DNA of 64,000 nt from Pseudomonas triticicola (GTDB lineage Bacteria; Pseudomonadota; Gammaproteobacteria; Pseudomonadales; Pseudomonadaceae). This document shows, one piece after another, positions 25,535-58,623 of the stretch. The stretch lies in NCBI RefSeq assembly GCF_019145375.1, contig NZ_JAHSTX010000001.1, positions 4,551,501 to 4,615,500 of the forward strand, read 5' to 3'. A program made the translations under genes and the position numbers. Numbering within the stretch: the first letter of the stretch is position 1; every line of letters starts with the position of its first letter. Below the pieces are notes generated by a model. That model was given only the letters and a program-made list of their open reading frames with translations, was not told the origin of the DNA and ran no database searches.

Positions 25535-25618
25535 GAATGGATCATCCTTGATCGTTCGATGCTCCGAACCATTCGGAACAAGCTGTGGATAACTCTGTTG
25601 GTAACTTGTTAAGCAAGC

Positions 25619-41407: not shown

Positions 41408-44934
<3,527 letters not shown>

Positions 44935-46091: not shown

Positions 46092-47615
46092 TCAAGTGGT
46101 CAGTGTACGCAGCAGGTTCTTGTAGTCCTCGCGGATGTCCGCGTCGGATTCCTTAAGTTCGTTGATCTTGCGGCAGGCGTGCAGCACGGTGGTGTGGTCG
46201 CGGCCGCCAAACACATCGCCGATTTCCGGCAGGCTGTGGTTGGTCAGTTCCTTGGACAACGCCATGGCCACCTGACGCGGACGAGCCACCGAGCGCGAAC
46301 GGCGCTTGGACAGCAGGTCGGAAATCTTGATCTTGTAATACTCGGCGACGGTGCGCTGAATGTTATCCACAGAGACCAGTTTGTCCTGCAACGCCAGCAA
46401 GTCTTTCAGGGATTCGCGGATCAGCTCGATGGTGATGTCGCGGCCCATGAAGTGCGAGTGGGCGATTACGCGTTTCAGCGCACCTTCCAGCTCACGGACG
46501 TTGGAGCGAATGCGCTGGGCAATGAAGAACGCGGCATCGTGAGGCAACTCGACTTTGGCCTGATCGGCCTTCTTCATCAGGATCGCCACGCGGGTTTCCA
46601 GTTCCGGCGGCTCGACGGCAACCGTCAGGCCCCAACCGAAGCGGGATTTGAGGCGTTCTTCAAGGCCTTCGATTTCTTTCGGGTAGCGGTCACTGGTGAG
46701 AATGACCTGCTGACCACCTTCAAGCAACGCGTTGAAGGTGTGGAAAAACTCTTCCTGGGAACGCTCCTTGCGAGCGAAGAACTGAATATCGTCGATCAGC
46801 AAGGCGTCCACCGACCGGTAGAAACGCTTGAATTCGTTGATGGCGTTCAGTTGCAACGCCTTGACCATGTCGGCCACAAAGCGCTCGGAATGCAGGTACA
46901 CGACCTTGGCATTCGGATTCTTCTTTAATAAATGGTTGCCCACCGCGTGCATCAAGTGGGTCTTACCCAGGCCGACGCCACCATAAAGGAAGAGCGGGTT
47001 GTAACCGTGCTTGGGATTGTCCGCCACCTGCCAGGCCGCCGCACGGGCGAGCTGGTTGGATTTACCTTCAACAAAATTCTCGAAGGTGAACGTGCGGTTC
47101 AGGTAACTGGTGTGCTTGAGCGCACCTTCTACCTGCACGGTGCGCTGCTCCGCGCGAACCGGGGCCTGCTGCGAAGCGGCGCCGGCCATCGGGTCGAAGC
47201 TGTCGCGGGAAGGTTCTTCGCTGACTTCAGCGGCCTTCTGTGTGAAACGTTTGGCCGGAGCAGGGGCTGGCGTCGGTGCCGGATTGCTCGCTGGCACATT
47301 ATTGGCCTGCGCCTGAGCAACCTGCGCGGCCGCCAGTGGCGCATTGGGTGCGGCACGAGGTGCCGAGCTGCGTTTGCTGCCTATTAACAAGGACAGCGCC
47401 GGCGTCGAGCCATTGCCGTGCTCATCCAGCAGTTCAAGGACGCGGCCCAGGTACTTTTCGTTGACCCAGTCCAACACGAAACGATTCGGTGCGTAAACGC
47501 GCAACTCGTCGCCTTCGGCTTCGACTTGTAGTGGACGGATCCAGGTGTTGAATTGTTGGGCAGGCAGCTCTTCGCGCAAAAGCTCCACGCACTGCTGCCA
47601 AAGTTCCACTGACAC
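46092..47615 (-). CDS. dnaA: Chromosomal replication initiator DnaA
   Basis: A 507-residue initiator: domain I (1-90), a Pro/Ala-rich linker (about 95-160), AAA+ domain III with Walker [10 protein letters not shown] and Walker [10 protein letters not shown], and domain IV with the DnaA-box helix ([24 protein letters not shown]). It starts with GTG preceded by AGGGGATATCC. It opens away from oriC; a perfect DnaA box at 47683 lies 68 bases upstream, consistent with autoregulation. It also contains a box in its own coding sequence (46363). Confidence 0.99.
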
Positions 47616-48080
47616 GGATATCCCCTAAGTTGAAAGCCGGTGAGGCAAAAACAAGCGGCCATTGTAGCGGCGAGCGATTCACTTATCCACATGCAGGTAG
47701 GTTCGTCACCATCATTTATCAACGCGTTAACGCATTAAAAGGCGACCAACGGCATGTGAATAAGCCCTGTGGATAAACGCCTCTGAGGGCACTGGACAAC
47801 TGGGGGCTAAACCCGATGGATAACCAGCCTGTGGATAACAGGCCATTCCACGCACAGCTTATCCGATAGCGCAGCACAGGCTGAACACGGTTTTCCACTG
47901 TAGTTGTCATTCTCTGTACACCCCGTGAAATAAGGCTTCATGGCAGTTATCCACAGAAGATGGCGTGTCTAGCTTTTACAAGCTTTACAGAAAAGCTTTA
48001 AATAATTCCCTTCTTTATTTCTATATCTGGCTGACAGGCGTTCAAGCTAAAAACCTGCCCGGATCTATTTATAGGGAAAC
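47616..48080. other. oriC: Replication origin oriC (dnaA-rpmH region)
   Basis: Non-coding DNA with four perfect DnaA boxes: TTATCCACA at 47683-47691 and 47947-47955, and its complement TGTGGATAA at 47768-47776 and 47830-47838. Near-matches occur at 47755 and 47859. An AT-rich tract at about 47965-48020 (AAATAATTCCCTTCTTTATT) is the probable unwinding element. The position between dnaA and rpmH is the known Pseudomonas origin. A diverged copy lies at 56300-56585. Confidence 0.95.
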
Positions 48081-48092
48081 GCTGGTTGGAAA

Positions 48093-48121
48093 TTGACCTG
48101 AAGGCTTGCTTTCTCTAGAAT
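48093..48121 (+). promoter_or_regulatory. Probable sigma70 promoter of rpmH-rnpA
   Basis: TTGACC (48093-48098), a 17-base spacer, and TAGAAT (48116-48121), 61 bases before the rpmH ATG. Confidence 0.75.
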
Positions 48122-48181
48122 CCCCGGTCTCTTAAAACGGGGGCCATTCCGGCCCGTTGTGGACGAACCAGGTAACACGAC

Positions 48182-48316
48182 ATGAAACGTACTTTCCAAC
48201 CAAGCACTATCAAACGCGCTCGTACCCACGGTTTCCGTGCTCGCATGGCTACCAAGAACGGCCGCGCAGTCCTGTCGCGTCGTCGCGCCAAAGGTCGTGC
48301 GCGTCTGGCAGTTTGA
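48182..48316 (+). CDS. rpmH: 50S ribosomal protein L34
   Basis: A 44-residue, strongly basic protein beginning [20 protein letters not shown] and ending [12 protein letters not shown], the whole L34 sequence. It is a structural component of the large subunit. The ATG follows CAGGTAACACG. It is the first gene to the right of oriC; rnpA starts 16 bases after its stop, the usual rpmH-rnpA pair in which L34 output and RNase P protein are co-transcribed. Confidence 0.98.
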
Positions 48317-48332
48317 TAATCCGGTACTGGAG

Positions 48333-48734
48333 GTGAGTCAGGACTTCAGTCGGGAAAAGCGTCTGCTTACCCCCCGGCATTTCAAGGCAGTCTTTGACTC
48401 CCCTACCGGCAAGGTTCCGGGGAAAAATCTCCTGCTCCTTGCACGCAACAACGATCTTGATCACCCCCGTCTCGGGCTGGTTATCGGGAAAAAGAGCGTA
48501 AAGCTCTCCGTTGAGCGCAATCGCCTCAAACGTCTGATGCGCGAATCGTTCCGTCTGCACCAGGATTCACTGGTCGGCTGGGACATCGTTATCGTCGCGC
48601 GCAAAGGTTTGGGTGATGTAGAAAACCCCGAATTGATTCAGCATTTCGGCAAACTCTGGAAGCGTCTGGCCCGTAACAAGCCCGTTCCGGCAGTCAAAAC
48701 CGAAACTGTAGGGGTAGACAGTACCGATGCGTAA
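48333..48734 (+). CDS. rnpA: Ribonuclease P protein component
   Basis: A 133-residue basic protein that supports the RNase P RNA in trimming tRNA 5' ends. The signature RNR motif is [13 protein letters not shown], and the N-terminal [17 protein letters not shown] is typical. The start is a GTG (VSQDF); relatives begin MVSQDF, so the reading is one residue short, with GGAG almost touching the start. The last 8 bases overlap yidD. Confidence 0.95.
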
Positions 48735-48972
48735 ACTGGCCCTCGTTCCGATCCAGTTTTATCGCTATGCCATTAGTCCTTTAATGGCCAGTCACTGTCG
48801 CTTCTACCCCAGCTGTTCCTGCTACGCGTATGAAGCCATTGAAAATCATGGCCTTCTGCGCGGTGGCTGGCTGACCTTTCGTCGTTTAGGTCGCTGTCAT
48901 CCGTGGAATCCCGGTGGTTATGACCCGGTTCCACCTGTCCCTACCTCCCGTTCTTCTTCGATGGCCGAGTAA
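48727..48972 (+). CDS. yidD: Membrane protein insertion efficiency factor
   Basis: An 81-residue protein with the conserved core [24 protein letters not shown] and [13 protein letters not shown]; the three Cys residues are typical. It is thought to sit at the inner face of the membrane and help insertion of YidC/Sec clients. Its start is inside rnpA and its stop is 2 bases before yidC, the standard translationally linked order. Confidence 0.95.
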
Positions 48973-48974
48973 TC

Positions 48975-50657
48975 ATGGATATCAAACGCACGATCCTGAT
49001 CGTCGCCCTGGCAATCGTGTCCTACGTCATGGTTCTTAAATGGAACCAGGATTATGGCCAGGCTGCCCTGCCGACTCAGAATGTTGCTTCCAGTACGACT
49101 ACATCCGGTTTGCCGGACACCGCCACTGGCACCAATGCTGCCGCCAGTGACGATATTCCGCGCGCCGCCAGCGATACCAGTGCACCTGCCGAAACGCCGG
49201 TCGCCGCCAGCAAGGATCTGATTCAGGTCAAGACCGATGTGCTCGATCTGGCGATCGATCCACAGGGTGGTGACGTTGCGCAACTGACTCTGCCTTTGTA
49301 TCCACGTCGTCAGGATCGTCCTGACGTTCCGTTCCAGCTGTTCGATAACGGCGGCGAACGTGTATATCTGGCGCAAAGCGGCCTGATCGGTACCAACGGC
49401 CCGGATGCTAACCCGGCCGGTCGTCCGGTTTATTCCTCGGAGAAGAAGGTTTACCAACTGGCTGACGGTCAGGATCAACTCGTCGTTGACCTGAAATTCA
49501 GCAAGGACGGCGTCAACTACATCAAGCGTTTCACCCTGAAACGTGGCCTGTACGACGTTGCTGTCTCCTACATTGTGGATAACCAGAGCGCTCAGCCCTG
49601 GAACGGCGCAATGTTTGCCCAGTTGAAGCGCGATGCCAGCGCTGATCCTTCGTCGACCACTGCTACTGGCACCGCGACTTACCTGGGCGCTGCCCTGTGG
49701 ACAAGTTCCGAGCCGTACAAAAAAGTGTCGATGAAGGACATGGACAAGGCGCAGCTCAAGGAAACCGTCACCGGTGGTTGGGTAGCCTGGCTGCAGCACT
49801 ACTTCGTGACCGCGTGGATTCCGGCCAAGGGCGAAAACAATATCGTCCAGACCCGTAAAGACAGCAAAGGCAACTACATCATCGGTTACACCGGTCCTAC
49901 TCTGACCGCTGCTCCAGGTGCGAAAGTTGAAACCAGCGCTGTGCTGTACGCCGGTCCGAAAAGCCAGGCTGTGCTGAAAGAGTTGTCCCCAGGTCTGGAA
50001 CTGACCGTCGATTACGGCATTCTGTGGTTCATTGCCCAGCCGATCTTCTGGCTGCTGCAACACATCCACGCCATTGTCGGTAACTGGGGCTGGTCGATCA
50101 TCTTCCTGACCATGCTGATCAAAGGGATTTTCTTCCCGCTGTCGGCCGCCAGCTACAAATCGATGGCGCGCATGCGTGCCGTGGCTCCGAAACTGGCTGC
50201 GCTGAAAGAGCAACATGGCGATGACCGGCAGAAAATGTCGCAAGCCATGATGGAGCTGTACAAGAAAGAGAAGATCAATCCACTGGGCGGCTGCTTGCCG
50301 ATCCTCGTGCAGATGCCGGTCTTCCTGTCGCTGTACTGGGTTCTGCTGGAAAGCGTGGAAATGCGTCAGGCGCCGTTCATGCTGTGGATCACTGACCTGT
50401 CGATCAAGGATCCGTTCTTCATTCTGCCGATCATCATGGGCGCAACCATGTTCATCCAGCAGCAGCTGAACCCGACGCCTCCGGATCCGATGCAGGCGAA
50501 GGTCATGAAAATGATGCCAATCATCTTCACCTTCTTCTTCCTGTGGTTCCCTGCTGGTCTGGTGCTGTACTGGGTTGTGAACAACTGCCTGTCGATTGCC
50601 CAACAGTGGTACATCACGCGTAAGATCGAAGCGGCGACGAAAAAAGCCGAGGCGTAA
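48975..50657 (+). CDS. yidC: Membrane protein insertase
   Basis: A 560-residue inner-membrane insertase. It has an N-terminal membrane segment (about 7-23), a Ser/Thr/Ala-rich linker, a large periplasmic beta domain (about 60-340) and five core helices near the C-terminus with the hydrophilic groove Arg in the SAASYKSMARMRAV region and GGCLPILVQMPVFLSLYWVL. It inserts subunits such as AtpE (encoded in this window) into the membrane. A terminator follows. Confidence 0.98.
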   Translation: MDIKRTILIVALAIVSYVMVLKWNQDYGQAALPTQNVASSTTTSGLPDTATGTNAAASDDIPRAASDTSAPAETPVAASKDLIQVKTDVLDLAIDPQGGDVAQLTLPLYPRRQDRPDVPFQLFDNGGERVYLAQSGLIGTNGPDANPAGRPVYSSEKKVYQLADGQDQLVVDLKFSKDGVNYIKRFTLKRGLYDVAVSYIVDNQSAQPWNGAMFAQLKRDASADPSSTTATGTATYLGAALWTSSEPYKKVSMKDMDKAQLKETVTGGWVAWLQHYFVTAWIPAKGENNIVQTRKDSKGNYIIGYTGPTLTAAPGAKVETSAVLYAGPKSQAVLKELSPGLELTVDYGILWFIAQPIFWLLQHIHAIVGNWGWSIIFLTMLIKGIFFPLSAASYKSMARMRAVAPKLAALKEQHGDDRQKMSQAMMELYKKEKINPLGGCLPILVQMPVFLSLYWVLLESVEMRQAPFMLWITDLSIKDPFFILPIIMGATMFIQQQLNPTPPDPMQAKVMKMMPIIFTFFFLWFPAGLVLYWVVNNCLSIAQQWYITRKIEAATKKAEA

Positions 50658-50680
50658 CTTGCACTGTGGATAACACCACT

Positions 50681-50707
50681 CAAAACGCCCCCTAGTGGGG
50701 CGTTTTG
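50681..50707. terminator. Terminator after yidC
   Basis: CAAAACGCCCC, loop CTAGT, GGGGCGTTTTG: an 11-bp perfect hairpin with short T-runs on both sides, 24 bases after the yidC stop. A perfect DnaA 9-mer (50665) lies in the short gap before it. Confidence 0.85.
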
Positions 50708-50738
50708 CTATCTGCCACTTTTGTCTGGATGCCGCTTT

Positions 50739-52106
50739 ATGAGCACACCCCGTGAAACCATCGCTGCTGTCGCCACTGCTCAAGGGCGCGGCGGTGTGGG
50801 CATCGTCCGTATTTCCGGGCCGTTGGCCAGCATGGCGGCAAAAGCCATCAGCGGCCGAGAACTGAAACCGCGTTACGCCCATTACGGGCCGTTTTTCAGT
50901 GACGACCGGCAAGTGCTGGATGAAGGTCTGGCTTTGTATTTCCCGGGGCCGAACTCGTTCACCGGCGAAGACGTGCTGGAACTCCAAGGTCACGGCGGCC
51001 CGATCGTGCTGGACATGTTGCTCAAGCGCTGCCTGGAACTGGGTTGTCGTCTGGCTCGTCCGGGGGAATTCAGCGAGCGCGCCTTCCTCAATGACAAACT
51101 CGATCTGGCCCAGGCCGAGGCAATTGCTGATTTGATCGAAGCCAGTTCTGCCCAGGCTGCGCGCAATGCACTGCGTTCATTACAGGGTGCGTTTTCCCAG
51201 CGTGTGCATAACCTGACCGAGCAACTGATCGGCCTGCGTATCTACGTCGAAGCCGCCATCGACTTCCCGGAAGAGGAAATCGACTTTCTTGCCGACGGCC
51301 ATGTATTGAGCATGCTCGACAAAGTACGCGATGAGTTATCCACAGTGCTGCGCGAAGCAGGGCAGGGCGCGTTATTGCGCGATGGCATGACAGTCGTCAT
51401 CGCTGGGCGGCCGAATGCCGGTAAATCCAGCCTGTTGAATGCATTGGCCGGTCGCGAGGCTGCCATCGTCACCGAGATTGCCGGCACCACGCGGGATATC
51501 CTGCGCGAACATATCCACATCGACGGCATGCCATTGCACGTTGTCGATACCGCAGGACTGCGGGATACGGACGATCATGTGGAAAAGATTGGTGTGGAAC
51601 GGGCCTTGAAAGCCATTGGTGAAGCGGATCGGGTTTTACTGGTGGTCGATGCGACCGCACCAGAGGCACTGGATCCTTTTGCCTTGTGGCCAGAATTTCT
51701 CGAGTCTCGACCGGACCCGGCGAAAGTCACCCTGATCCGGAACAAAGCCGATCTGACCGGTGAAGCGGTTTCTCTGGAAACCAGTGACGACGGCCACGTG
51801 ACCATCAGTCTCAGCGCCAAGTCCGCCGAAGGCCTCGATCTGCTGCGTGATCACCTCAAGGCGTGCATGGGTTACGAGCAGACTTCGGAAAGCAGCTTCA
51901 GCGCACGTCGCCGGCATCTGGAAGCACTGCGTCACGCCAGCGCGGCACTGGAACATGGCCGCGCGCAACTGACCCTGGCCGGGGCAGGCGAATTGCTCGC
52001 CGAAGATCTGCGCCAGGCTCAGCATTCCCTGGGTGAAATCACCGGGGCGTTCAGCTCTGATGATTTGCTCGGAAGGATTTTCTCCAGCTTCTGCATCGGC
52101 AAATAA
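50739..52106 (+). CDS. mnmE: tRNA modification GTPase MnmE
   Basis: A 455-residue GTPase that, with MnmG, adds the cmnm5 group to wobble U34 of several tRNAs. It has an N-terminal folate-binding domain (about 1-118), a helical domain, an inserted G domain ([23 protein letters not shown]) and the conserved C-terminal CIGK with the Cys needed for activity. The ATG at 50739 gives [19 protein letters not shown]; the frame open to 50721 is not conserved. Its partner mnmG is separated from it by an iron-uptake insert. Confidence 0.98.
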
Positions 52107-52109
52107 AAG

Positions 52110-52146
52110 AAGGGGCTGTGGATAATTCATCCGCAGCCCCTTTTTT
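52110..52146. terminator. Terminator between mnmE and the TonB receptor gene
   Basis: A 14-bp stem (AAGGGGCTGTGGAT / ATCCGCAGCCCCTT, one G-U pair) with loop AATTC, followed by TTTT on the plus strand and preceded by an A-run that gives U on the minus strand. It carries a perfect DnaA 9-mer (52117-52125). Confidence 0.9.
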
Positions 52147-52148
52147 GT

Positions 52149-54584
52149 TCACCAGTTATAGGACACCGTACCGAGCAAAGTACGATCCTCGCCCCAGTAA
52201 CAGCGGCCTGCGTCGTTGCATCCCGACACATATTCCTTGTCGAACAGGTTCTTCGCATTCAGATCGACACTCCAGTGTGTATCGATCTGATATCCAACAG
52301 CCGCGTCGACCAATGTCACGTCGCCAGCATCCAGTTTTCCGTAGAGAGAAGGCGAAGTATAGGCAAACGCACTGTCGAAATAACGCACGCCCCCCGCCAC
52401 ATACATGCCTTTCAAATCACCGTCGAGGAAGCGATATTTCGCCCAGGCCGACGCTTGATTACGCGGCACGCCGGTCATTTGATGGCCCTTGACCAGCGAT
52501 GTCGCTGCATCCTTGGTGATCTTTGCATCGGTGTAGGTATAAGCCGCCGTGACATTGAGGTTCTGCGTCAGGTTACTGTTGAGTTCCAGCTCTACCCCTT
52601 TGGCGCGGCTTTCACCCACTTGGCGATAGGTCGAAGTCGTTGCATCGAAATAGGTGTCGTCCTTCTTGCGCAGGTCATACACCGAAGCGGTGAAAGCGGT
52701 GTCCCAGCCAATCGGTTCGTACTTCAAACCCACTTCGTACTGGCTGCTGGTGATCGGATCAAGCGGCGCTCCGGCGTTGGAAATCTGCTGCACCGGCACG
52801 AACGCCGTGGAGTAGCTGACATACGGCGTCATGCCGTTGTCAAACTGATACATCACGCCGCCCTGATAGGTGAACTTCTTGTCCTCGGAGCTGATGTTGC
52901 TGCCTCGGGCCACCTTATCGCGGAAGTCACTGTCGACCCAGTCCTGGCGCCCGCCGAGCAGGAACAGCCAGTGGTCGTACTTGCTCTGAATCTGTGCATA
53001 AACGCCCTTCATCTGCTGCTCGAGCAAAGTGTTCTGCACGGCAATCGGCGTGGTCGGATCGCGCAGGTAAACCGGGTTGTAGATGTCGATCGGCCCGACA
53101 ATGCCGGCATTCCAGTCCTGGTTGAACGAGGTGCGATCGTAGCTGGCGCCAAACAGCACGGTGTTTTCCAGATCCCCCGCCTGGAATTTGCCTTCCAGCT
53201 GGTTATCCAGCGAATACACCATGGATTTGTTGAAGCGATCATAGGCGGTCATGTTCAACCGCGTGCCGAAGCCGGCGTTGTTCAGATTGCCCGGCCAGGT
53301 TTCGTGGCGGGTGATGCGCGACTGCATGTAGCGCGAGTTCTGGCGGAACTGCCAGTCATCGTTGAACGAGTGGCTGAACTCGTAACCGGTGCTCCAGGTT
53401 TCCCGTTCGAAGGTATTCCAGTCCGGGTCGCCGAGCATGGTGTCTTTGGACAATTTCCCGTTGGGATTGCTCAGCAACGTGCCGGCGGCCGGCAGGCCAA
53501 GCTCCATGTTGGTGTGATCTTTCTGGTAGTTGGCCAGCAGCGTCAGCGTATTGAAATCGTCGAAATTCAGGGTCAGCGAAGGGGCGATATAAATCCGGTC
53601 GTCAGGCACGTGCTCGGTCTGGGTATCGGATTTGCGCCCCAGCATCACCACGCGTCCGAGAACGTTGCCGCTGTCATTGAGCGGGCCGGAGACATCCACG
53701 CCGATTTGCCGGCGATTGTTCGAGCCATAACCCAATTGCACTTCACCTTGCGGCGCGACAGTCGGGCGTTTGCTGACCAGATTGACCAGACCGCCTGGCG
53801 CATTTTCGCCATACAGCAGCGAAGACGGGCCACGGAACACCTCGACCCGCTCAAGTCCGTACGGCTCGGTGCTGGTGTCATAGCGATTGCCCTGCACGCG
53901 CAGTCCATCGCGCAGCAAACCGTAGCCGTAATCGGTGGCGTTGAAACCACGGATGTAAAACAAGTCTCCCGCCAGACTGTCACCGGCGGCGAACGGCGGG
54001 GCGAAGATTCCCGGTACGTAGCCGAGGACGTCGGTGAGTGTCTGGGATTTCTGATCCTTGATCCGCTGCCCGGTCACCACTGACACCGAACGCGGTGTTT
54101 CCGACAGCGGCGTACTGGTTTTCGTACCGATCCGGCTGTTTTGCGCCTTGTAGCCGACGTCGGCGGCGTAATCGAGATTCATTGGATTGCCCAACTGCGC
54201 ATTGATGTTGGTCGGCGCCAGTTCCAGGGAGTCACCGTTGGGCACGTTCTGCAGAATGAAACTGCCGGGTGCTTGTGGCACTGCCTGTAAACCCGAGCCT
54301 TGCAGCAGTTGAGCGAAACCTTGTTCGACGCTGAAGTCGCCGTTCAGCCCGGCACTGCGCAAGCGGCTGGTCTGCTGCGGCGAGAACGACAGAATTACAT
54401 TGGCGGCAGCGGCGAACTGGCTCAAGGCACTATCCAGCGGGCCGGCGGCAATGGCGTAGCGCTGGGATGCCGACGCCGCGAAAGTGCTGTTGCTGATCAC
54501 CAGACAGGACGCAGCGCTGGCCATCAATAAGCTGTAAGCAATGCAGTGGGGAGAAAAGCGCTGACGGAAGGTGGGAAGACGCAT
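52149..54584 (-). CDS. TonB-dependent siderophore receptor with signalling (STN) domain
   Basis: An 811-residue outer-membrane receptor: signal peptide (about 1-36, ending TFAASA), an STN signalling domain (about 50-110: AAGPLDSALSQFAAAANVIL), a plug (about 145-270: SVSVVTGQRIKDQKSQTLTDVL, EVFRGPSSLLYGENAPGGLVN) and a 22-strand barrel ending in aromatic Trp (TLLGTVSYNW). The STN domain shows it signals to the neighbouring FecR/FecI pair. The ligand is probably a hydroxamate-type siderophore by resemblance to FhuE/FiuA/FoxA proteins, but is not determined. Confidence 0.9.
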   Translation of the reverse strand: MRLPTFRQRFSPHCIAYSLLMASAASCLVISNSTFAASASQRYAIAAGPLDSALSQFAAAANVILSFSPQQTSRLRSAGLNGDFSVEQGFAQLLQGSGLQAVPQAPGSFILQNVPNGDSLELAPTNINAQLGNPMNLDYAADVGYKAQNSRIGTKTSTPLSETPRSVSVVTGQRIKDQKSQTLTDVLGYVPGIFAPPFAAGDSLAGDLFYIRGFNATDYGYGLLRDGLRVQGNRYDTSTEPYGLERVEVFRGPSSLLYGENAPGGLVNLVSKRPTVAPQGEVQLGYGSNNRRQIGVDVSGPLNDSGNVLGRVVMLGRKSDTQTEHVPDDRIYIAPSLTLNFDDFNTLTLLANYQKDHTNMELGLPAAGTLLSNPNGKLSKDTMLGDPDWNTFERETWSTGYEFSHSFNDDWQFRQNSRYMQSRITRHETWPGNLNNAGFGTRLNMTAYDRFNKSMVYSLDNQLEGKFQAGDLENTVLFGASYDRTSFNQDWNAGIVGPIDIYNPVYLRDPTTPIAVQNTLLEQQMKGVYAQIQSKYDHWLFLLGGRQDWVDSDFRDKVARGSNISSEDKKFTYQGGVMYQFDNGMTPYVSYSTAFVPVQQISNAGAPLDPITSSQYEVGLKYEPIGWDTAFTASVYDLRKKDDTYFDATTSTYRQVGESRAKGVELELNSNLTQNLNVTAAYTYTDAKITKDAATSLVKGHQMTGVPRNQASAWAKYRFLDGDLKGMYVAGGVRYFDSAFAYTSPSLYGKLDAGDVTLVDAAVGYQIDTHWSVDLNAKNLFDKEYVSGCNDAGRCYWGEDRTLLGTVSYNW

Positions 54585-54701
54585 GTGTGGATTAGCCCTG
54601 AAGGTGGCGAAGAGCCGCGTTGATCGCGATTACCTGTAGGGCCGGGTCAGGGCGAAAAAAGATAGCCCTGTTTGCGATTATTTTTCCCAGGCGTTTTTTG
54701 A

Positions 54702-55649
54702 TCAAACGCTGTGGCTGATCGAGACCCAGTAACGACTGAAATAGCGGACGTTGATCGGCAACGAAGCCTTGAGATTGGCCAGCACTGCGTCGGTGGAATC
54801 GAGCCGGAAAGTCCCGGAGACCCGCAGATCCCGAGCGCGGCGATCACAGTGCAATACACCGCTGCGATAGCGCCCCAACTCTGCGATGACATCGCCCAGA
54901 CGCGCGTCGAGAACGATCAACTGACCGTTGATCCAGGCCACTTCTGATGCCTGGAAGGGCCTGAGGCCGATGTGCCGACTGTCGAAATCCGCGCCTTCGC
55001 CTGCGTTCAGGATGAGCGCAGCAGTGGATGCCTGCGCAGGTTGAACGCTGACTCGATCCTCCATCACGCCGACCCGGGTTGAGTTCGGCATCTGATGCAC
55101 CGAGAACCGGGTGCCCAATGCTTGAATCCGCCCGTCACGGGTTTGCACATAGAACGGCCGCTGATCGCCAAGCTTGCCGGTTTGGACAAGGATTTCACCG
55201 GCGCGCAGTTGGATCAGGCGTTGCGCTGCGTCGAAAGAGACATCAATGGCCGAGTCAGTGTTGAGCTGGATCCGGCTGCCATCGGCCAGGCTGATGGTGC
55301 GACGCTGACCTACAGCGGTTTTATAGTCGGCCCAGACGTTGCCGAGGGAGGTGTGTCGTTGAACGTTCCAGCCAACGAAACCTGTTCCCGCTGCAAGCAG
55401 CAGCAGTTTGAGTACCTGGCGTCTTTGTTGGCCGCTATTGAGCGCACGTCGTTTCAGATCCTGCGGCAGCGTACCGAGGTGGCGCTGTAATTGTTCCATC
55501 TGGTTCCACGCCGCCAGATGCGCCGGATCGCTGTCTATCCACAACTGCCAGGCTTTTTGTTCGGCAGGGCTCGGTGGCTGGGATTGAAACTGGACATACC
55601 AGCTGGCGGCAGTTTCGAACACCTGACGATCTGCAGCGGCGGCCATCAT
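54702..55649 (-). CDS. FecR-like anti-sigma regulator
   Basis: A 315-residue membrane-spanning regulator: an N-terminal cytoplasmic DUF4880-type segment with conserved Trp residues (AASWYVQFQ, AWQLWIDSDPAHLAAWNQM), one membrane helix (about 80-95) and a periplasmic FecR domain (LADGSRIQLNTDSAIDV, IQALGTRFSV). It relays ligand binding by the STN receptor to the sigma factor. A start at 55673 is possible; ATG at 55649 overlaps the sigma stop (ATGA) and is the coupled start. It lies 117 bases before the receptor gene. Confidence 0.88.
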   Translation of the reverse strand: MMAAAADRQVFETAASWYVQFQSQPPSPAEQKAWQLWIDSDPAHLAAWNQMEQLQRHLGTLPQDLKRRALNSGQQRRQVLKLLLLAAGTGFVGWNVQRHTSLGNVWADYKTAVGQRRTISLADGSRIQLNTDSAIDVSFDAAQRLIQLRAGEILVQTGKLGDQRPFYVQTRDGRIQALGTRFSVHQMPNSTRVGVMEDRVSVQPAQASTAALILNAGEGADFDSRHIGLRPFQASEVAWINGQLIVLDARLGDVIAELGRYRSGVLHCDRRARDLRVSGTFRLDSTDAVLANLKASLPINVRYFSRYWVSISHSV

Positions 55650-56152
55650 GGTTGCGCCATGATGAGGGCGCATTCAGTCAGGGCGCGGATCATGTGTTTT
55701 TTTACTGTGGTCAGCGAGACCCTCAATTGCAGGGCGATCTGTTGATATGTCAGTCCGTCGACTTGCGACAGCATGAAAATCTGCCGTGTTCGCGTGCCCA
55801 GGCCGGTCAATGCTTTATCCACAGCAACCAGGGTTTCAATGATCAGCGCTCTGTCTTCTTCGCTGACGATCGTCGCTTCCGGCCGAGCTGCGAGGGCCTG
55901 CAGATAAGCGCTTTCAATGGCCCTGCGTCTATAACGATCAATGACCAGCCCGCGTGCAATGGTCGTCAGGTAATCCCTCGGCTCACGAATATGAGCTGCA
56001 TTGCGCGCGGCCAGAACTCGCAAAAACGTGTCATGCGCCACATCGGCTGCATCGCAGGCGTTGTGCAGTCTGCCCTTGAGCCAACCATATAGCCACGAAT
56101 GATGTTGCTCGTAGATTCGCTCGATCGCAGCGGTGTGGGCGGGTAGGGACAT
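55646..56152 (-). CDS. FecI-like ECF sigma factor
   Basis: A 168-residue iron-starvation sigma factor with region 2 (about 10-75: WLYGWLKGRLHNACDAADVAHDTFLRVLA) and region 4 (about 105-160: LTYQQIALQLRVSLTTVKKHMIRAL). It would direct transcription of the downstream receptor gene once freed by FecR. First gene of the cassette; a Fur-box-like sequence lies just upstream (56169-56189), as expected for iron repression. Confidence 0.92.
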   Translation of the reverse strand: MSLPAHTAAIERIYEQHHSWLYGWLKGRLHNACDAADVAHDTFLRVLAARNAAHIREPRDYLTTIARGLVIDRYRRRAIESAYLQALAARPEATIVSEEDRALIIETLVAVDKALTGLGTRTRQIFMLSQVDGLTYQQIALQLRVSLTTVKKHMIRALTECALIMAQP

Positions 56153-56168
56153 GGGAAAACTGACGAGT

Positions 56169-56189
56169 TAATGATAATGGCTATTATTA
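56169..56189. promoter_or_regulatory. Candidate Fur box upstream of the FecI-like gene
   Basis: The stretch ATGATAATGGCTATTATTA resembles the Fur palindrome (GATAATGATAATCATTATC), with inverted TGATAAT/TATTATT arms. It lies 17-37 bases upstream of the fecI-like ATG. Inferred iron repression. Confidence 0.65.
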
Positions 56190-56644
56190 GCCTCTGTTAC
56201 GTCCTCTCACAATAGCCTTTTCATTTTCCTGCCCTTGGCTTGCCAAGCGTCACCGATCCTTCGCTGGCGCCTTTTTTACGTCCGGAAAAAGCCTTGTTGG
56301 CGATTTTCTGTGGATTAAGCCCTGTGAATAACTGCCACTGAGGGCAGTTGATAAAGGGGGTTGAAAACTGGATATAACCCACGCTGTGGATAACCATCCG
56401 ATTAATCCACAGGCTTAAACCGTTTATCCAATGGCCTCACTGCCACATGAGCACAGAGTTTTGAACCTCTGTACACATTGAAAAATAAGGCTTGTGGCGA
56501 TCTATCCACAGAAAGGCGGTCCAGTAAGAATAAACATAAAAACAAAGGTTTTATAAATTTCTCTCTTTTTTATTCTTTTAACCTCGAGTTCTCCACAGCT
56601 GGTTAAATTTTGTGCAAAGGGTTCTTTAGAAAGGGCGAAGTCCC

Positions 56645-56675
56645 TATACTTGCCGACCAGGTCCAGAAACCTGGT
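56645..56675 (+). promoter_or_regulatory. Candidate mnmG promoter -10 and leader hairpin
   Basis: TATACT at 56645-56650 has a weak TTCTTT 17 bases upstream (56622). A 7-bp hairpin follows (ACCAGGT / ACCTGGT, 56656-56675). Confidence 0.45.
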
Positions 56676-56721
56676 TTCAATATTTCCTGAATGACCTACT
56701 TATTAAGCAGGCACGAGGTGC

Positions 56722-58623
56722 GTGGTGGATTTCCCTTCCCGTTTTGAAGTGATCGTCATCGGCGGCGGTCATGCCGGTACCGAGGCAGCACTGGCGTCAG
56801 CACGCATGGGGGCAAAAACCCTGCTACTGACGCATAACGTGGAAACCCTCGGTGCCATGAGTTGCAACCCGGCCATCGGTGGCATCGGCAAAAGCCATCT
56901 GGTCAAGGAAATCGATGCCCTCGGCGGCGCGATGGCCATGGCTACCGACAAGGGCGGCATCCAGTTTCGCGTGTTGAACAGCCGCAAAGGCCCGGCCGTA
57001 CGGGCGACCCGTGCGCAAGCCGACCGGATTCTCTACAAGGCAGCTGTTCGCGAAATTCTCGAAAACCAGCCGAACCTGTGGATATTTCAACAGGCTGCTG
57101 ACGACCTGATCGTTGAGCAGGAGCAAGTCCGTGGTGTGGTTACACAGATGGGTCTGCGTTTCTTAGCCGATTCCGTGGTGTTGACCACTGGTACATTCCT
57201 CGGCGGACTTATCCACATCGGTTTGCAGAATTTCTCCGGCGGTCGCGCCGGTGATCCACCGTCGATTGCTCTGGCCCACCGTCTGCGTGAGTTGCCACTG
57301 CGTGTCGGTCGCCTGAAAACCGGCACACCGCCGCGTATCGACGGCAAGTCTGTGGATTTCTCGGTGATGACCGAGCAACCGGGTGACACACCTATCCCGG
57401 TGATGTCGTTCATGGGCAACAAGGAACAGCACCCCCGTCAGGTCAGTTGCTGGATCACCCATACCAATGCCCGCACCCACGAAATCATCGCGGCGAACCT
57501 CGATCGTTCGCCGATGTACTCCGCTGCCGGGGAGATCGAGGGCGTCGGCCCGCGCTATTGCCCGTCGATCGAAGACAAGATTCATCGCTTTGCCGACAAG
57601 GAAAGCCATCAGGTGTTCATCGAACCGGAAGGTCTGACCACCCATGAGCTGTACCCGAACGGGATATCCACAAGCCTGCCGTTCGACGTGCAATTGCAGA
57701 TCGTGCAATCGATCCGCGGTATGGAAAACGCGCACATTGTGCGTCCGGGTTATGCGATCGAGTACGACTACTTCGATCCGCGCGACCTGAAGTACAGCCT
57801 GGAAACCAAAGTCATCGGTGGTCTGTTCTTCGCCGGGCAGATCAACGGCACCACCGGTTACGAAGAAGCTGGCGCTCAAGGTCTGCTCGCCGGGGCCAAC
57901 GCTGCACTGCGTGCCAAGGGCAAAGAAGCCTGGTGCCCGCGCCGCGATGAAGCGTACATCGGCGTTCTGGTCGACGACCTGATCACCCTCGGTACCCAAG
58001 AGCCGTACCGCATGTTCACGTCGCGAGCCGAGTACCGCCTGATTCTGCGCGAAGACAACGCCGACCTGCGTCTGACCGAAAAAGGCCGAGAGCTGGGTCT
58101 GGTCGATGACGCGCGCTGGGCGGCCTTCTGCAAGAAGCGCGAAAGCATCGAACTGGAAGAGCAGCGTCTGAAAAGCACCTGGGTACGGCCGAACACCCCG
58201 CAGGGTGATGCGATTGCCGAGAAATTCGGCACGCCGCTGACCCACGAATACAATTTGCTCAACCTGTTGAGCCGTCCGGAGATCGATTACGCCGGTCTGG
58301 TCGAAGTGACCGGGCAGGGCGCCGAAGATCCACAGGTCGCCGAGCAGGTCGAGATCAAGACCAAATACGCCGGTTACATCGACCGCCAACAGGACGAAAT
58401 CGCCCGTCTGCGCGCTAGCGAAGACACCAAATTGCCTGTGGATATCGATTACACCAACATCTCCGGTCTGTCCAAGGAGATTCAGAGCAAGCTCGGCGCC
58501 ACACGCCCCGAGACTCTGGGCCAGGCTTCGCGGATCCCGGGCGTGACCCCGGCAGCGATTTCGCTGTTGATGATTCATTTGAAAAAACGCGGCGCGGGCC
58601 GTCAGTTGGAGCAAAGCGCTTGA
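56722..58623 (+). CDS. mnmG: tRNA uridine-5-carboxymethylaminomethyl modification enzyme MnmG
   Basis: A 633-residue FAD enzyme (GidA) that works with MnmE on U34 of tRNAs. It has the FAD loop [19 protein letters not shown], the [17 protein letters not shown] region and the family signature [15 protein letters not shown]. The start is the first of two tandem GTG codons, after GAGGTGC; the second would shorten it by one residue. It lies directly right of the second origin-like region. rsmG overlaps its stop. Confidence 0.98.

Follow-up and report, generated by a model that had tools for sequence, protein, structure and literature searches.

A second oriC module upstream of mnmG in Pseudomonas, paralogous to the module beside dnaA

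The region upstream of mnmG (gidA) in Pseudomonas is likely to be a second complete chromosomal origin module, which would be competent for initiation and would probably serve as a minor or back-up origin; that it fires is judged from its sequence. This mnmG-side module, here termed ori2, and the oriC module between dnaA and rpmH, here termed ori1, are diverged copies of each other. The sequence-only reading that preceded this analysis had described the DNA upstream of mnmG as a diverged duplicate of oriC in fixed register. This observation was confirmed overall. Of the interpretation given to it, the common ancestry and the shared orientation stood, whereas the direction of copying and the decay of the mnmG copy did not.

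Two related modules in the Pseudomonas origin region

The window, i.e., the whole stretch of DNA that was analysed, comprises 64,000 bp of contig 1 of a P. triticicola genome of 5.8 Mb in 5 contigs. Its genes gyrB-recF-dnaN-dnaA run leftward and are followed by the rightward rpmH-rnpA-yidC-mnmE, an inserted cassette and mnmG-rsmG-parA-parB, which makes it the Pseudomonas origin region; some of these names were assigned by gene order. MnmG of the window shares 99% identity with MnmG of a Pseudomonas sputi locus. Inside recF, positions 43868-43883 match a parS consensus perfectly. The closest parS sites of P. aeruginosa lie in recF, according to the available part of PMC3909081. The features used in the following are:

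46092..47615, minus strand: dnaA
47683..48028, plus strand: ori1, the dnaA-side oriC module between dnaA and rpmH, delimited by boxes, paralogy and profile match
47683, 47768, 47830 and 47947: perfect DnaA boxes of ori1
47755: near DnaA box of ori1
47969..48028, no strand: unwinding element of ori1, ranking second among the least stable separate segments of the window
48182..48316, plus strand: rpmH, first gene of the rpmH-rnpA-yidC-mnmE block that separates ori1 and ori2
52149..56152, minus strand: genes for a TonB-dependent receptor, FecR and an ECF sigma factor, inserted between mnmE and mnmG
56302..56600, plus strand: ori2, the mnmG-side oriC module, a DnaA-box cluster followed by an unwinding element, delimited by paralogy, conservation and profile match
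56309..56317, minus strand: near DnaA box TGTGGATTA, one mismatch
56323..56331, minus strand: near DnaA box TGTGAATAA, one mismatch, counterpart of the perfect box at 47768
56385..56393, minus strand: perfect DnaA box, counterpart of the box at 47830
56403..56411, plus strand: near DnaA box TAATCCACA, one mismatch
56502..56510, plus strand: R1-like DnaA box CTATCCACA, adjoining the unwinding element
56523..56582, no strand: AT-rich unwinding element of ori2, with the lowest stability of any 60 bp in the window
56589..56597, plus strand: near DnaA box TTCTCCACA, one mismatch
56600..56721, plus strand: mnmG leader, delimited by conservation, with CCCTATACT, read by eye as a promoter -10 element
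56722..58623, plus strand: mnmG (gidA), which served as query for collecting loci

Both box clusters end in an R1-like TATCCACAGAA box, behind which an AT-rich stretch follows. By nearest-neighbour duplex stability the segment 56523-56582 ranks first of 63941, and among separate 60-bp segments of the window (more than 300 bp apart) the two unwinding elements have the lowest stability, that of ori2 coming first. In ori2, six boxes with at most one mismatch lie within 300 bp, the densest such stretch of the window, compared with five on the dnaA side. Only the box at 56385 is perfect on the mnmG side, as the sequence-only reading had noted, compared with four on the dnaA side. Together with its flanks the box at 56502 forms the genus motif TCTATCCACAGAA, which is given in Table 1 of PMC7174414. 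TAAGAATAAACATAA, noticed by eye after this R1-like box, may represent DnaA trios. A promoter scan listed no promoter in 56600..56721. As a whole, ori2 combines a DnaA-box cluster, an unwinding element beside an R1-type box, homology to the annotated oriC of E. coli, and the seat and polarity of the latter.

The fixed register of the two regions held at every anchor with coordinates: seven of seven pairs lie exactly 8555 bases apart, and the eighth anchor, the start of the AT-rich tract, came without coordinates. Without gaps, the stretch 47754-48020 is 53.6% identical to the stretch 8555 bases further on; all other offsets above 300 bases average 24.6% (sd 2.6), and the best of them reaches 36.3%. 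The gapped local alignment of the two regions reached a score of 77, compared with a maximum of 29 in 2000 dinucleotide shuffles. However, the term near-gapless, which had been used for this paralogy, was too strong. The register breaks mid-way, where identity at the fixed offset drops to 9, 3 and 5 of 20 across the blocks of 47840-47899, and the best alignment requires compensating indels before the register resumes. A search of the own genome with the dnaA-side module returned the module itself and the mnmG region, the latter split into two pieces (E 4e-7 and E 0.03); the 14 remaining matches were short, with E 0.39 or worse. Common ancestry of the two copies, both facing the same way, is thus supported well beyond chance by the alignment and by the profile matches described below. 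No Rfam family was found in a scan of 47000-58000, and a plasmid collection queried with 56300-56720 gave no match.

The cassette of sigma factor, FecR and TonB-dependent receptor genes widens the spacing of ori1 and ori2 and belongs to neither module; its receptor had no match in the loci L001-L004. Across the order, dnaA to the left and mnmG to the right of a spacer that varies in length is a recurring arrangement, and the distance between dnaA and mnmG reaches up to 50 kb. The rpmH-rnpA-yidC-mnmE block has the reverse orientation between dnaA and mnmG in three loci (L023, L031 and L184), where rpmH and mnmG diverge from a single intergenic region.

Kinship with E. coli oriC and conservation in Pseudomonadaceae

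An unguided profile was built from eight mnmG leaders, which were aligned without any Pseudomonas sequence, so that circularity was avoided. The eight loci are all those of the Alteromonadales or Vibrionales among 80 named ones. In E. coli K-12 this profile matched the stretch that contains the annotated oriC (E 5.5e-35), and three more matches in that locus were weak (E 0.0095 to 0.28). Its matches in the window were 47752-47971 (E 2.9e-10) and 56366-56557 (E 7.7e-10), with no other up to E 0.5, and on shuffles the profile reached at most 0.6 bits. A second alignment method gave E values of 2.1e-9 for ori1 and 2.8e-8 for ori2, with one weak extra match at 25561 (E 0.087). Since both regions of the window are matched by the same unguided profile, they are homologues of E. 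coli oriC. In the dnaA-rpmH stretch of E. coli K-12 no profile gave a match better than E 0.27.

Profiles of the two Pseudomonadaceae modules were also run on mnmG leaders from outside the family, covering loci with a leader of more than 300 bp. More than 15 bits were reached in 20 of 98 leaders by the ori1 profile and in 23 of 98 by the ori2 profile, among them leaders of Shewanella, Pseudidiomarina and Colwellia, and 0 of 980 shuffles reached 5 bits. Applied directly to E. coli, the Pseudomonadaceae profiles scored at most 8.3 bits. The copy closer to the E. coli-type profile is the one at mnmG in 57 or 49 of 73 family genomes, depending on which of two alignments is used; in the window itself the two copies were much alike, the dnaA copy scoring 33.8 and 31.2 bits compared with 32.4 and 27.5 bits for the mnmG copy. 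A count of 69 of 73 in favour of the mnmG copy was set aside as biased, as that profile had been aligned to a Pseudomonas model. Because the mnmG copy has the seat and the polarity of E. coli oriC, its earlier description as a duplicate of oriC has to be corrected: the kinship holds, a direction of copying is not established. In a tree with outgroups, calculated for the older seat, the deep branches were unsupported. E. coli shares the mnmG seat with its relatives, but origins on the dnaA side are common among bacteria at large.

The mnmG-anchored loci of 22 named Pseudomonas or relatives and of 60 other genomes of the family, together with the window, provided 83 mnmG leaders. For ori1, 73 of the 83 loci offered a dnaA-side stretch of more than 400 bp, and where dnaA is not adjacent the 600 bp upstream of rpmH were used instead. 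With a threshold of more than 15 bits for a profile aligned to a Pseudomonas model, applied to both seats, the module is present at mnmG in 79 of 83 loci and at dnaA in all 73 usable ones. No mnmG module above 15 bits was detected in L138, L139 and L148, all of genus code g13, and in L142, so that it is dispensable there.

Along the mnmG leaders, 20-bp blocks show a conservation of 0.31-0.37 upstream of ori2 and of 0.42-0.69 within it, with an abrupt upstream edge near 56302, and over the unwinding element (56522-56581) the identity within the family is 0.54-0.65. Constraint was compared in 19 genomes of or near the genus of the window (171 pairs; one genome is titled Paucimonas). The mean identity was 0.773 for the ori2 core and 0.758 for ori1, compared with 0.575 for the four-fold sites of yidC, mnmE and dnaN; ori2 exceeded the four-fold sites in 171 of 171 pairs and ori1 in 170. 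As its identity exceeds that of four-fold sites, plain decay of ori2 is opposed, and by this measure of sequence identity ori2 is kept by purifying selection and is well preserved, not a decaying remnant. The asymmetric box loss, from which decay had been read, does not carry that meaning, since the mnmG copy is constrained like the dnaA copy and contains the segment with the lowest stability in the window.

A quick tree calculated for 42 genomes (84 rows) separates the copies mainly according to place, with six label changes compared with 28.3 after shuffling, and the copies of the window each group with the copies of the same place from other genomes. As the copies group mainly by place and not by genome, the duplication predates the genus.

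GC skew and the two seats

Within the family the skew does not single out one of the copies: raw GC skew, calculated for 21 named Pseudomonas loci and for the long-spacer family genomes G052 and G056, does not discriminate the firing copy, and GC skew at the four-fold sites of yidC, mnmE, mnmG, dnaA and dnaN is too weak near the origin to decide. In two g13 genomes (G012 and G029) the raw skew puts the origin at dnaA.

The order-wide comparison covered 20 genomes with spacers of 13-50 kb, in each of which three stretches were compared for skew: the one to the left of dnaA, the spacer, and the one to the right of mnmG. The first ten genomes were picked before any skew was calculated and the second ten afterwards, the latter partly repeating the families f23, f33, f34, f25 and f40. 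Raw skew was negative left of dnaA and positive right of mnmG in 20 of 20 genomes. A negative spacer, which places the origin at mnmG, was found in eight genomes (G281, G210, G179, G235, G258, G280, G169 and G230) and a positive spacer, which places it at dnaA, in the other 12; both arrangements are present in the family f34. When the coding strand was fitted and bootstrapped, six of the 20 genomes were decisive, with the origin at mnmG in G281, G280, G169 and G230 and at dnaA in G236 and G285, and all six agree with the unguided profile. Against raw skew, the unguided profile scored higher at the indicated seat in 19 of 20 genomes, with a tie in G239, and in five of these agreements the better score was below 10 bits. 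The two Pseudomonadaceae profiles gave 19 agreements and one tie each, and a fourth profile (guided, from six sequences) agreed in 17 genomes, tied in one and disagreed in two (G236 and G012). As the genomes are not phylogenetically independent and half of them were chosen after the first half, no probability is attached to this agreement. More than half of the spacer codes rightward in six of the eight mnmG-type genomes, and less than half only in two of f23; gene orientation in the spacer is thus a weak guide to the seat of the origin.

Spacers of 4-11 kb were noisier, and 12 of 16 loci with more than 15 bits at one seat agreed with the skew. The exceptions were L069 and L079, with the module at mnmG and a slightly positive skew, and L070 and L174, with the module at dnaA and a negative skew. 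This count leaves out L038, L025 and L170, which stay below 15 bits at both seats; the first two agree with the skew and the third does not. Outside the family the module was found at both seats in G280 (with the ori2 profile) and in G153. The latter contradicts the rule by which the copy with the better score is the active one: there the ori2 profile favours mnmG and the spacer skew is positive. Box counts alone mislead as well: G236 has eight near-boxes at mnmG, yet neither a strong module score nor a skew switch there.

A tentative explanation, on which we would not yet rely, is that a single oriC module has alternated between the dnaA and mnmG seats in gammaproteobacteria by copying and loss, and that Pseudomonadaceae have stayed in a two-copy state in which both copies may fire or substitute for each other.

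Possible roles of ori2 and comparison with known systems

Two findings are already in print, namely the existence of two origins in P. aeruginosa and the listing of gammaproteobacterial chromosomes with two oriC. According to the available part of PMC4403523, which cites Jiang et al. 2006, P. aeruginosa has two autonomously replicating origins, only one of which is essential in typical laboratory conditions. The mention of two origin-like regions in pseudomonads that accompanied the sequence-only reading is thereby borne out for this species, with the qualification that the locus may not be the mnmG site. PMC3642087 cites Jiang 2006 as well, and the available parts of this paper and of PMC3596284, PMC6053426 and PMC5835720 describe no second origin. 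In the ground-truth set of gammaBOriS (PMC7174414) 105 of 460 gammaproteobacterial chromosomes have two oriC; the part of the paper at hand states neither the position of the second copies nor their homology. In the open-access literature, as far as its accessible text goes, we found no paper that places a second Pseudomonas origin at mnmG or aligns both copies, and none that shows constraint on the mnmG copy or ties the seat to skew across the order. The genus motif TCTATCCACAGAA is found in the mnmG copy of 26 of 43 Pseudomonas loci compared with the dnaA copy of 1 of 41, and within the window at 56501-56513 only. The gammaBOriS motif of Halomonadaceae, ACAGAACTTC, was seen in mnmG leaders of f33 (L161 and L180) and f7 (L163) in a scan that covered the mnmG leaders of these three genomes.

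As a working origin, ori2 would be bound by DnaA at its box cluster, and DnaA would spread from the R1-like box to the unwinding element, which it would open. Transcription of mnmG, which reads away from the module, would add negative supercoils and could aid the opening, as was proposed for E. coli gidA (PMC6606810). According to the available part of the same paper, blocked gidA transcription had no effect on replication of the E. coli chromosome in exponential growth. In Pseudomonas ori2 would then probably act as a minor or back-up origin, and its boxes would also hold DnaA.

Holding DnaA could also be its sole task. It is possible, although we consider it doubtful, that ori2 no longer initiates and is kept as a DnaA-titrating site or as a timer of mnmG transcription, in the manner of datA or of a DnaA-regulated promoter. 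The dominance of one-mismatch variants over the single perfect box would suit such a role. The box load of the surroundings would suit it too: 30 perfect DnaA boxes TTATCCACA lie in the 64-kb window, compared with a shuffle mean of 0.12, and of the 130 in the genome (18 for a reversed control) 23% fall into the window, which makes up 1.1% of the genome. This fits titration near the origin as in E. coli, where, according to the available part of PMC12371093, a DnaA-box-dense region lies near the origin. That only one origin of P. aeruginosa is essential (in the part of PMC4403523 cited above) points the same way. However, a site for titration or an operator can do without an unwinding element, whereas ori2 retains a conserved one, which is the least stable segment of the window. 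In addition, eight other genomes have this module in this seat at the point where the raw skew switches. Loci of the datA/DARS type have DnaA boxes without an unwinding element, and the presence of this element separates ori2 from them.

It is improbable that ori1, ori2 and the genes in between form a single bipartite origin of the kind known from B. subtilis or H. pylori, in which DnaA bound to both clusters would cooperate by looping. Most family loci do have both clusters, in the same orientation, but each cluster has an unwinding element of its own. In the family loci that have boxes at both seats the clusters are about 4 kb to about 25 kb apart, and ori2 is missing from four loci of the family. 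Known bipartite origins consist of two box clusters with one shared unwinding element, in contrast to the separate element found beside each cluster here.

Recent gene conversion, as opposed to old descent with selection, is an equally poor explanation for the similarity of ori1 and ori2 in the genome of the window. The identity of the copies is somewhat higher within genomes (0.502) than between genomes (0.480), and the dnaA copy of the window is the fifth best of 73 for its own mnmG copy. In the opposite direction, though, the mnmG copy is no better than 13th of 73 when ranked against its own dnaA copy, and in the tree both sit among same-place copies of other genomes. Elsewhere in the family conversion may have occurred. 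In L135 (genome G018, genus code g18) dnaA is about 23 kb away from rpmH and the module remains upstream of rpmH; its rpmH-side and mnmG copies pair with 98% SH-aLRT, which suggests conversion or re-copying.

That ori2 is a functionless relic in decay, left behind when the origin moved to dnaA, is very hard to believe: the module is indeed missing from three g13 loci and L142 and has one perfect box compared with four in the dnaA copy, but its constraint equals or exceeds that of the dnaA copy, it is present in 79 of 83 family loci and its conservation edge at about 56302 is sharp, a conservation that largely refutes this reading.

With ori2 as a probable second origin, an old question can be taken up again, namely why the origin of E. 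coli is located beside gidA/mnmG and that of pseudomonads beside dnaA. The two seats are now linked by sequence homology, and in one family most loci have both filled, while in many relatives the module is confined to a single seat. Homology together with double occupancy makes the relocation of an origin testable in laboratory Pseudomonas. The machine-learned Pseudomonas oriC motif occurs mainly in the mnmG copy, and the two places may therefore be confounded in origin databases and in peak-to-trough growth estimates.

Among known systems, the oriC between dnaA and rpmH is a close relative of ori2 in the same chromosome. Yee and Smith are said to have located the Pseudomonas oriC there in 1990, for P. 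putida and P. aeruginosa. The two modules are paralogous, with the same box order, the same orientation and an unwinding element of their own; the dnaA-side one differs by its four perfect boxes, compared with one in ori2, and is on family average further from the E. coli-type profile. The two origins of P. aeruginosa (PMC4403523, in its available part) likewise amount to two modules per chromosome, the second of which may or may not be the mnmG site. Like ori2, the oriC of E. coli K-12 (NC_000913.3, 3925744-3925975) adjoins mnmG, and its unwinding element faces mnmG. One origin is annotated in the fetched stretch of the E. coli K-12 record, whereas Pseudomonas has a second module beside dnaA.
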